Below, piece after piece: positions 21,614 to 38,824 of a stretch of 64,000 nt of DNA. This DNA comes from Vibrio sp. HDW18 (GTDB lineage: Bacteria; Pseudomonadota; Gammaproteobacteria; Enterobacterales; Vibrionaceae), in assembly GCF_011306175.1 (NCBI RefSeq), contig NZ_CP049913.1:248001-312000 (forward strand), in the 5' to 3' direction. The first letter of the stretch is position 1; each line of letters starts with the position of its first letter. Under the pieces are notes generated by a model. The model had not been told where the DNA came from and did no database searches. It saw only the letters and a program-made list of their open reading frames with translations. The translations under genes and the position numbers were made by a program.

Positions 21614-21665
21614 AACATGCTTCCTTGGCAATTTGTTGAATTTATTTGTTTTTTTCAAAGCGTAA

Positions 21666-21700
21666 AACAAAAACCCTCGGGAGTTTAGTCTCCCGAGGGT
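21666..21700 (-). terminator. his operon attenuator terminator
   Basis: In the minus-strand transcript ACCCTCGGGAG pairs exactly with CTCCCGAGGGT (21673-21683 with 21690-21700) and is followed by TTTTTGTTTT, immediately before hisG. Upstream sequence at about 21728-21756 contains ACTCGGGGGA and TCTCCCGGAGT, which can pair with each other, and CTCCCGG resembles the terminator arm, so alternative folds are possible. Confidence 0.92.
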
Positions 21701-21780
21701 TAGAATCTTGCTGTAGCTCTGATTTCAACTCCGGGAGATTCCAGTCCCCCGAGTATGCGTACATCTCCCCGAAAGACAGC

Positions 21781-21825
21781 TTAGGGATGATGGTGATGAT
21801 GAATGTTCATTACGAAATTACGCAT
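21781..21825 (-). CDS. hisL: his operon leader peptide HisL
   Basis: A short frame encoding MRNFVMNIHHHHHP, with five consecutive His codons, then TAA. The start may be ATG 21825 or the internal ATG 21810 (peptide MNIHHHHHP). No good ribosome-binding site is visible for either. It lies between the his promoter and the attenuator hairpins, as in enteric his leaders. Ribosome stalling at the His codons when charged tRNA-His is scarce should favour the antiterminator. E. coli has seven His codons in the equivalent peptide. Confidence 0.93.
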   Translation of the reverse strand: MRNFVMNIHHHHHP

Positions 21826-21941: not shown

Positions 21942-21966
21942 CAAAAAAGGAGGTCCACAGACCTCC
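21942..21966 (-). terminator. Intrinsic terminator of the lysW gene
   Basis: GGAGGTC (21949-21955) pairs with GACCTCC (21960-21966), and on the minus strand the hairpin is followed by a run of T. It lies 26 bases after the transporter stop codon. Confidence 0.85.
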
Positions 21967-21991
21967 TCGTAGCGCAAGCGGATTCAGTCGA

Positions 21992-23593
21992 TTATACCGA
22001 CACTTGCTTACTCAATTTGGTTTTCGAGAGTACAGTAAGAACTAAGCAGATCAACACAAAGCTGACCGATGCCGCCGCTAACGCTAGCCACAACGAAGCA
22101 AAGATACCGAGTACCACATAACCAATCGCAGAAACTAAAGCCACCGCTAATGCGTAAGGCAACTGAGTAGCAACGTGATCGATATGGTGGCAGCGCGCAC
22201 CAGTCGATGACAAAATGGTCGTATCTGAAATCGGCGAGCAGTGATCACCAAATACCGATCCGGCTAATACCGCACCCAACATCGGCAGCATCAAGGCCAC
22301 ATCGGTTGCACCAGCCATATCACCCGCAATCGGCAGCATAATACCAAATGTGCCCCATGATGTTCCGGTCGAGAATGCCATCGCACCAGACAGAACAAAC
22401 AGAATCACCGGTAACCAGTAGGGTTGAATGTTGCCTTGCACCAATGAAGAGAGATAAGTACCGGTTTTCATATCACCAATCACTGAACCAATCGTCCATG
22501 CAAAGATGAGGATCAAAATCGCACCAAACATCGATTTTGCGCCGATCCACAAGGTATTGGCCACTTGCTTAACTGGCAGCTTTTGACGTAGCACAGTAAT
22601 AAACGCCATCGCCAAACCGACTAGGCCACCATAAACCAGTGAGGTACCTACATCGGTATTTTCAAAAGCACCAAAAATATCAAATGGTTTGCCACTTTCA
22701 GTTAACGCGCTCGCGCCAGTCCAAATCATGGCACTGATCGTCGCCACCACTAAAAACACAATCGGCAATACCAGATCTAATACACTGCCACGCGGGCTTT
22801 GTTCAATATCGAGCTCTTCATTAAGTTGATGAGCCGATGGCGCATCGGTACTCGGATCTTCATCAAATCCCCGTCCTTGAGAGGCTGCAATTTCATGTTT
22901 GCGCATCTGGCCAACGTCGATTTTGAACCACACCACAACAAATACCATCAGCAACGCAAAGATCGCATAGAAGTTCATCGGTACTAAACGTAGATAGGCA
23001 CCTAATGCGGAATACTCTTCGATCCCATGAGCCACCAAAACACCGCCAATAATGGTCATAATGTAAGCGCCCCAACTTGAGGCGGGCATCACAACACACA
23101 TCGGCGCGGCAGTAGAGTCTAGGATATAAGCTAATTTGGCGCGAGAAACGTAGAAACGGTCCGTCACTGGGCGAGAAATTGACCCCACCGCGAGGCTATT
23201 AAAGTAGTCATCCACAAAAATGAATACGCCTAAAAATGCCGCCAATAATTGAGAGCCGCGTTTACTTTTTACTCGAACTTGAGCCCACTGAGCAAAAGCA
23301 TGCGTCCCGCCCGACAGGGTCAATAAAGCGGTCATCATGCCCAGCAGCAGTAAAAAGCCAACAATGCTCATATTCCACGCATTAATCGCACCATCTTCGA
23401 TAAATACACTACCGACTCGAGTCGCAATATATTGTGCCGATTGGCCGAGCTCATAATCCGCTAACAGTAAAGCACCTAAGAAAATACCCACTCCGAGTGA
23501 CAGGAGTACGCGACGAGTAATAATAGCCAGACTCAATGCTACCAGTGGTGGTAAAACAGAGAGTGGCGAAGAAGCAAAATCGATTAAATTCAT
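21992..23593 (-). CDS. lysW: NhaC-superfamily transporter, predicted lysine transporter LysW
   Basis: A 533-residue polytopic inner-membrane protein of the NhaC Na+/H+ antiporter superfamily. It has about 11-12 hydrophobic segments. Conserved intramembrane stretches are FVDDYFNSLAVGSISRPVTDRF, DSTAAPMCVVMPASSWGAY, FSTGTSWGTFGIMLPIAGD and VFGDHCSPISDTTILSSTGARCHHIDHV. A charged cytoplasmic loop lies around residues 225-270. Sequence alone would give 'Na+/H+ antiporter NhaC'. The leader, however, carries a lysine riboswitch, and comparative work on lysine regulons named NhaC-type genes under such elements LysW, a probable lysine importer. The substrate is therefore inferred from regulation, not shown. 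Ribosome-binding site AGGAAG precedes the ATG. Confidence 0.85.
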   Translation of the reverse strand: MNLIDFASSPLSVLPPLVALSLAIITRRVLLSLGVGIFLGALLLADYELGQSAQYIATRVGSVFIEDGAINAWNMSIVGFLLLLGMMTALLTLSGGTHAFAQWAQVRVKSKRGSQLLAAFLGVFIFVDDYFNSLAVGSISRPVTDRFYVSRAKLAYILDSTAAPMCVVMPASSWGAYIMTIIGGVLVAHGIEEYSALGAYLRLVPMNFYAIFALLMVFVVVWFKIDVGQMRKHEIAASQGRGFDEDPSTDAPSAHQLNEELDIEQSPRGSVLDLVLPIVFLVVATISAMIWTGASALTESGKPFDIFGAFENTDVGTSLVYGGLVGLAMAFITVLRQKLPVKQVANTLWIGAKSMFGAILILIFAWTIGSVIGDMKTGTYLSSLVQGNIQPYWLPVILFVLSGAMAFSTGTSWGTFGIMLPIAGDMAGATDVALMLPMLGAVLAGSVFGDHCSPISDTTILSSTGARCHHIDHVATQLPYALAVALVSAIGYVVLGIFASLWLALAAASVSFVLICLVLTVLSKTKLSKQVSV

Positions 23594-23717
23594 GATCTTC
23601 CTAAACCAGTAAAAAATGGTTAGAGATCTACTGCAGACAAATTAAGCGACTTCATGTCCACTTAATTTATGTTGAACTAAGCGAAAGGGAAGCGAACACT
23701 TCACCCAACCCTACAGT

Positions 23718-23900
23718 AGCGCTCCATAGTTTAACAAAAATATAGACTATGGCAGTGTTACACCTATTTGATGCAACCCCAGCCAACTGCTGTGATCGGC
23801 AAGTTGACTTCGGCGACAACGCCTTTCTCCACCATTGATTGGCATCACCCCAATTGTGGATACTCTTCGTAATCGCGCCTCTACGGCGAAACCCCCATCT
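23718..23900 (-). ncRNA. Lysine riboswitch (L box) in the lysW leader
   Basis: On the minus strand the conserved lysine aptamer blocks occur in order: GTAGAGGCGCG (23884-23874), GAAGAGTA (23868-23861), GCCGAAGTC (23814-23806), GGCTGGGGTT (23784-23775) and GGTGTAACACTGCC (23764-23751). These are the signature internal sequences of the five-helix L box. The aptamer spans about 23745-23900. Downstream, CCATAGT (23752-23746) can pair with ACTATGG (23730-23724) and would take the 3' side of helix P1, giving a lysine-dependent switch. A further GGGTGAAG/CTTCCC hairpin (23706-23688) with a short T run is a possible terminator. Confidence 0.92.
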
Positions 23901-24272: not shown

Positions 24273-24306
24273 TAACTCGTATCCAATTTGTGAACAGGAA
24301 ATGGTA

Positions 24307-24723
24307 ATGTCGGAAATCACTAAGACTTTATTAAATATTCGTAGCCTACGTGCTTATGCACGCGAGCTAACTCTTGAACAACTAGAAGAAGCGTTAGATA
24401 AATTAACGCTTGTGGTTGGAGAGCGTAAAGAGGCAGAAGCAGACGAAATGGCAGCTCGTGCCGAGCAAGATGCGAAATTAGCAGCGATTGCAGAACAAAT
24501 GGCAAAAGATGGAATTGACCTAGAAGCGCTTATTTCTGCGCTGTCTGGCGAAACCAAAATGAAAGCCAAAAGCAGCAAAGGCAAACGCGCACCTCGTCCT
24601 GCTAAATACAAGTATATCGACACTAATGGTGAAGAGAAAACTTGGACAGGCCAAGGTCGCACACCTTTAGCGATTCAAAAAGCACTCGATGCGGGTAAAT
24701 CTTTGGACATTTTTGCTATTTAA
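24307..24723 (+). CDS. vicH: H-NS family nucleoid protein VicH
   Basis: A 138-residue H-NS protein. The N-terminal oligomerisation region (about 1-85) is highly charged and predicted coiled coil. A basic linker (KAKSSKGKRAPRPAKYKY) leads to the C-terminal DNA-binding domain with WTGQGRTPLAIQKAL, the conserved hook that reads AT-rich minor grooves. VicH silences AT-rich and virulence DNA in Vibrio. I chose ATG 24307 (MSEITKT) over ATG 24301 because AGGA lies at proper distance for the later one. The gene is monocistronic. Confidence 0.95.
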   Translation: MSEITKTLLNIRSLRAYARELTLEQLEEALDKLTLVVGERKEAEADEMAARAEQDAKLAAIAEQMAKDGIDLEALISALSGETKMKAKSSKGKRAPRPAKYKYIDTNGEEKTWTGQGRTPLAIQKALDAGKSLDIFAI

Positions 24724-38682: not shown

Positions 38683-38698
38683 ATAATCAGCGCCGCAA

Positions 38699-38824
38699 TA
38701 TACCCAAACAACTTGAAGTTGCAGGTAGGCGGCAAGTGAGTGAATCCCCATGAGCATAGACAAACTATGTGATTGGGGTGAACGAACGTCGCCAACACCG
38801 CTGCAGCTTCAAGTCGGAAGGGTA
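38699..38824. repeat. Full-length ERIC element
   Basis: About 126 bases from TATACCCAAACAACTTGAAG to CAGCTTCAAGTCGGAAGGGT. The ends are imperfect inverted repeats (ACTTGAAGTTGCAG versus CTGCAGCTTCAAGT) and the centre has the AACTATGTGATTGGGGTGA block. This matches the ERIC family as seen in Vibrio. It lies 17 bases after the small gene and before the bioD terminator. Confidence 0.9.

Follow-up and report, generated by a model that had tools for sequence, protein, structure and literature searches.

Lysine riboswitch before lysW in Vibrio sp. HDW18: a conserved start-codon platform and a family tie to Tet(35)

A transporter gene of the NhaC superfamily in Vibrio sp. HDW18 was proposed, from the letters of the sequence alone, to stand under the control of a lysine riboswitch and to deserve re-assignment from Na+/H+ antiporter to lysine transporter. 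The locus raises the question of how lysine would control this gene and what the gene product is, a question sharpened by a curated profile that gives members of the same family the name of a tetracycline resistance protein, Tet(35). The stretch of DNA analysed here, termed the window, comprises 64,000 nucleotides of contig 1; the genome has three contigs and a total size of 3.14 Mb.

The lysine aptamer upstream of lysW

A cmscan search of the window with Rfam covariance models located a full-length lysine riboswitch aptamer on the minus strand at 23709..23891 (RF00168, 120.8 bits against a cut-off of 30 bits, E 9.8e-32, model positions 1-182 of 182), which bore out the element that the initial annotation had recognised on this strand, although its bounds of 23718-23900 proved to be about 9 nt off. 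From the end of the aptamer to the ATG at 23593 there are 115 nt, and the gene that begins there, lysW (lysW1; 21992..23593, minus strand), is an open reading frame of 533 aa with a PF03553 match, so that the riboswitch was also correctly placed 5' of an NhaC-superfamily gene. In the Rfam alignment, the 5' strand of helix P1 is CCGTAG (23881..23886, minus strand), and the 3' strand with its extension is CTACTGTAG (23711..23719, minus strand), which according to the pairing analysis doubles as the 5' side of an alternative (ON) helix. The repeat pair 23746-23752 and 23724-23730, which had been taken for a competitor of P1, turned out in the same alignment to be the two arms (CCATAGT/ACTATGG) of a hairpin at 23724..23752 (minus strand) that forms the last helix of the aptamer, P5 by the usual naming. 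The lysine riboswitch before lysW is accordingly real, and its aptamer presumably binds lysine.

The coupling of a lysine riboswitch with the NhaC-superfamily gene lysW has already been published for the Vibrionales, and RF00168, also called the L-box, has been reported upstream of lysW in the Alteromonadales, Aeromonadales and Pasteurellales as well (PMC5584792); the window copy adds one member to this known set. RNA family, transporter family and bacterial order are all the same as in the published lysW riboswitches, whereas the start-codon sequestor/antisequestor pair and its conservation, described below, do not appear in the available part of PMC5584792.

Three lysine riboswitches were counted in the whole genome, located 5' of lysW1, for which lysine transport has been proposed, 5' of a gene read as aspartokinase from its amino acid kinase and ACT domains, and 5' of a paralogue termed lysW2, which lies on contig 2 (L004, 3978-5818), is 52% identical to lysW1 and has its riboswitch 78 nt upstream. 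Among the genomes of the family that were searched, at least one lysine riboswitch was present in 150 of 150 and a relative of the LysW protein in 99 of 101, and the close relatives with species names belong nearly all to Vibrio, with some from Aliivibrio and Photobacterium. RF00168 precedes lysW1 in all 14 loci from named records and in 60/60 upstream stretches from genomes of the same family, these being drawn from 61 full-length lysW1 places without a locus, with one genome (G091) left out and gene fragments passed over; for lysW2 the count is 17 of 20 stretches, and the three without it come from one genus. In 20 genomes picked from other families of the order, the switch was found directly before the lysW relative in 14, elsewhere in one and not at all in five. 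The retrieved loci of nine lysW relatives, eight from family f12 (L165-L172; identity to the window protein 68-72%) and one from family f17 (L173), showed no lysine riboswitch, and whole-genome searches of two f12 genomes (G278 and G340) returned none at all, which makes the f12 relatives a natural comparison for how lysW is otherwise controlled.

A proposed two-state platform at the start codon

Two hairpins lie between the aptamer and the gene, namely a linker hairpin directly 3' of the aptamer (GGGTGAAG...CTTCCC; 23687..23706, minus strand), recognised from sequence and folding, and a sequestor hairpin (GATCTCTAACC...GGTTTAGGAAGATC; 23594..23628, minus strand), recognised from folding and leader alignment, which ends directly at the AUG. 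Next to the latter is the antisequestor CTGCAGTAG (23628..23636, minus strand), which can form 9 pairs, G-U allowed, with 23711-23719. This arrangement is part of a conserved block just 5' of the start codon, which reads CAGTAGATCTC-(C/T)-AACC ... GGTT ... AGATC-ATG in most lysW1 leaders, and (C/T)GGTAGATCTCCACC ... GGTG ... GAGATC or GAGATT in the lysW2 version, some members of which have one base before the ATG. The GATCTC arm of the block is able to pair with the arm touching the AUG, generating the sequestor, and the antisequestor directly 5' of it, CAGTAG in lysW1 or GGTAG in lysW2, is complementary to the P1 3' strand, i.e., CUACUG in lysW1 and CUACC in lysW2. Every one of the 101 distinct lysW1 leaders has the block, as do 18 of 21 lysW2 leaders (20 distinct), and the same arrangement was seen by eye at a locus from another family (L174).

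Taken as a switch, this platform would operate in the following way. At high lysine, P1 would be stabilised, which would leave the antisequestor free and allow the hairpin at 23594-23628 to tie up the ribosome-binding region as far as the AUG, with translation OFF. When lysine is absent, the P1 3' strand CTACTGTAG would pair with the antisequestor CTGCAGTAG, and the resulting ON helix would remove the 5' arm of the sequestor hairpin and expose the start site. We hold with considerable confidence that the lysine riboswitch turns lysW translation OFF at high lysine by means of P1, antisequestor and sequestor, an OFF response to lysine being what is expected for an importer or a biosynthetic gene. 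Action on translation had been named as one of two options by the initial annotation and is the better supported of them, the pairing involved being a different one. Sequence, comparison and calculation establish the aptamer, the two alternative helices and how well these are conserved; the direction of the switch in cells is a prediction. In addition, the conserved platform with its two states pinpoints where in the leader the control of lysW by lysine can be demonstrated.

The comparison was based on 123 leaders, of which two identical copies (L079, L151) and three lysW2 leaders without RF00168 (L152, L154, L155) were dropped to give 118. The first five pairs of the ON helix can form in 116 of these distinct leaders and the first six in 99, while pairs 6 to 9 are weaker and fail in 17, 11, 32 and 13 of the 118, respectively. 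Pair 5 is U-A in 99 leaders and C-G in 17, and the P1 5' strand does not track the change, a sequence pattern that indicates selection for the alternative helix. All 17 C-G cells come from the lysW2 leaders, however, and the covariation may be a single event. For the covariation test, 26 of the 118 leaders were chosen by a below-80% identity filter, in which 88.3% of the cells of both helices are paired, compared with 28.6-48.3% after sliding by one to three columns. None of 500 shuffles attained the covariation score of this set (0.180), and the slides stayed below it at 0.038-0.107. Changes on both sides occur in eight of 19 pairs; 5 of 500 shuffles get that far, as does the slide of -3 (8 pairs, 17 vs 18 cells), and the further pair types are unremarkable, with 226 of 500 shuffles equalling them. 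The 9-pair complement of the window leader alone arose in 68 of 5000 shuffled linkers, which is not rare enough by itself.

Folding energies, which are ligand-free model values, were compared in 113 of the 118 leaders, L095, L107, L110, L117 and L120 being excluded because they are gapped in the P1 5' strand or the paired columns. The ON helix was calculated to be more stable than P1 in 99 of the 113 leaders, with a median of -2.9 kcal/mol and a value of -6.2 for the window leader, and was not favoured in 14. The last six leader bases together with the AUG were predicted to be more open in the ON state in 103 leaders (mean 0.52 vs 0.31), with no opening in the remaining 10 of 113. For the window leader folded with 12 nt after the AUG, the openness of the start was 0.65 in the ON state vs 0.27. 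A run extended by 54 nt of coding sequence gave equal openness in the two states over the 16 bases as far as the AUG (0.29 vs 0.29), the ON-state start region being paired with coding sequence in this run and opened in the 12-nt run. The start of the lysW2 leader of the window genome was likewise not more open in the ON state (0.29 vs 0.31).

Two further mechanisms are to be weighed against translational control by the sequestor. A GC-rich hairpin directly 3' of the aptamer could suggest premature transcription termination, and a weak terminator had been proposed at 23688-23706; the hairpin does exist (23687-23706), yet the bases right after it are TTTCGC rather than a U-run, the terminator scan does not report it, and the linker diverges strongly in length and sequence among the leaders with the start-site hairpin retained, all of which renders termination at this place very unlikely. 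More generally, an intrinsic terminator between aptamer and lysW was rejected, since the scan reports none in this interval on the minus strand; a terminator-like hairpin was reported behind lysW (21947..21968, minus strand). Dual control, in which translation is combined with RNase E cleavage (or Rho), has been described for E. coli lysC (PMC5584792) and would be served by the same two folds; being compatible with the translational switch, it may be entertained tentatively as an addition to it. The E. coli lysC switch controls biosynthesis, with RNase E involved (PMC5584792), and the lysW1 switch differs from it in the hairpin ending at the AUG and in the likeness of its antisequestor to the P1 5' strand.

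As for precedent, the conserved antisequestor may be new, judged against the available parts of PMC5584792, PMC3766115, PMC6601013 and PMC11477304. Rodionov, in 2003, is said to have described the lysine riboswitch upstream of lysW, and that account may include the sequestor/antisequestor pair, too.

LysW, its substrate and Tet(35)

The window protein matches PF03553 with 318.5 bits against a cut-off of 23 and is encoded under a lysine riboswitch, and thus carries both marks of LysW. Searching by sequence for relatives of solved structure gave none at E up to 1. The structure prediction drew on 30 sequences, namely the window protein and 29 others with 72-89% identity to it, and had a mean pLDDT of 72.3; the predicted fold resembles the ArsB, INDY, TRAP and MleN transporters. 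The model resembles, for example, ArsB (Z 19.6, rmsd 4.6, 398 aligned) and an MleN model (Z 17.7, rmsd 5.2, 396 aligned), both over about residues 1-505, and sequence identities to these MleN/ArsB/INDY-like transporters amount to 8-14% in the matches above Z 11. The predicted fold can be regarded as ion-transporter-like, and such a shared fold is silent on the substrate and does not settle it.

The best NCBIfam match of the window protein is Tet(35), NF000013, a curated resistance model of 369 residues for the tetracycline efflux Na+/H+ antiporter family with a cut-off of 750 bits, under which the protein remains with 630 bits. The match runs only from residue 165 on, with the first model position at the equivalent of Met165 of LysW, and the corresponding C-terminal part of the gene from this internal Met occupies 21995..23101 (minus strand). 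In the family of the window gene, it is the C-terminal two thirds that curation treats as the tetracycline determinant Tet(35). Among 148 genomes of the genus, a match to NF000013 at E <= 0.001 was found in 147, with those of G159 and G246 being weak, and the cut-off was passed in 22. The passing matches lie in frames of 542-603 aa, as against 369 for the model, and a single one of them runs over a TAA. At all 12 of the 12 best Tet(35) loci, a lysine riboswitch was present before frames of 548-559 aa, and LysW of the V. harveyi type strain, which exceeds the cut-off with 827.5 bits over residues 165-529, has its riboswitch 109 nt upstream. Moreover, residue 165 is Met in 30/30 aligned LysW sequences, within a conserved stretch around APMCV.MPASSWGAY, and columns 1-164 are more conserved than the remainder (82.6% vs 73.3% mean identity to the window protein in 29 relatives). 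Open reading frame and conservation therefore reach 164 residues further N-terminal than the extent of the Tet(35) model, and the structure prediction places about eight helices, some of low confidence, in residues 1-164.

On these grounds Tet(35) is probably the lysine-riboswitch-repressed LysW read from an internal Met, minus approximately its first eight predicted helices. If this is true, tet35 calls across Vibrio would report a housekeeping transporter of lysine (or of a cation), expressed in dependence on lysine, and not a resistance gene. The tetracycline-resistance label is doubtful because the gene family is under lysine regulation. In the open-access literature searched under the unbracketed spelling, no link between Tet(35) and a riboswitch was found, the only paper with both 'tet35' and 'riboswitch' using them in unrelated passages; the identity of Tet(35) with riboswitch-controlled lysW may be new.

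Three functions compete for the family. Tetracycline efflux as the main role, in keeping with the Tet(35) label, would be favoured by the curated model itself, whose best matches in the genus are lysW genes, and by the original Tet(35) report, in which tetracycline resistance was reportedly claimed from a cloned fragment. Against efflux stand the lysine riboswitch at every one of the 12 top loci, the near-ubiquity of the match in the genus and, from a survey that found tet34 and tet35 in all Vibrio species, the tetracycline susceptibility of 62 tested sea otter isolates (PMC11921324), and we consider it highly improbable. The occurrence of tet35 throughout tetracycline-susceptible Vibrio may be due to Tet(35) being the lysW family; the terms 'antiporter' and 'lysine' are absent from the main text of that survey (PMC11921324). 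For Vibrio campbellii, a genome paper names a gene on chromosome 1 with 99.73% identity to the reference AF353562 (PMC5660062). LysW was proposed as a lysine transporter in PMC5584792, where a role in pH is mentioned as well, and a 2024 review calls its function unknown, either lysine transporter or pH-related antiporter (PMC11477304). Were LysW a genuine Na+/H+ (or other cation) antiporter serving pH control, it would carry no lysine and would be made when lysine is too scarce for buffering by lysine decarboxylase; the PF03553 match and both of these papers lend this view some weight, but in one genome the lysine switch is common to two lysW paralogues and an aspartokinase gene, and LysW stays below the cut-off of the NhaC equivalog TIGR00931 (49.1 vs 370 bits), so that the antiporter reading appears unlikely. 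We infer that LysW carries, and imports, lysine. The re-assignment suggested by the initial annotation agrees in this respect with the published proposal and with the regulation, and goes further than the 2024 review, which leaves the function unsettled.

Variant leaders and surroundings of the locus

Several leaders depart from the common form. Three of the 60 scanned lysW1 aptamers are weak, namely those of L114 (164-334, 36.7 bits), L115 (159-331, 50.7 bits) and L138 (135-313, 63.0 bits), compared with 96-139 bits for the other 57, and in these three the aptamer has apparently decayed with the start-site platform kept. In the genomes of L114 and L115 (G042 and G068), a lysW2 is present as well, and its switch is strong (131.5 and 132.9 bits, respectively). 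In L108, L109, L112, L114 and L115, the usual ATG after the hairpin is replaced, and judging from the frame translation may begin at a TTG a few bases on. When plasmid records were searched with the leader and the gene start, a single match came up, in an Aeromonas caviae record of 4.9 Mb, with 71.6% identity over 140 bases.

In the window, an H-NS family gene (24301-24723, plus strand) is divergent from lysW, and the Vibrio RNA AS5 (RF02818, 105.9 bits by cmscan) was identified at 38698-38822 of the plus strand. Directly behind lysW, and outside the switch, cmscan located RF00514, the histidine operon leader belonging to the operon that follows (21665..21802, minus strand), which shares the locus with lysW1 in 12 of the 14 loci from named records.
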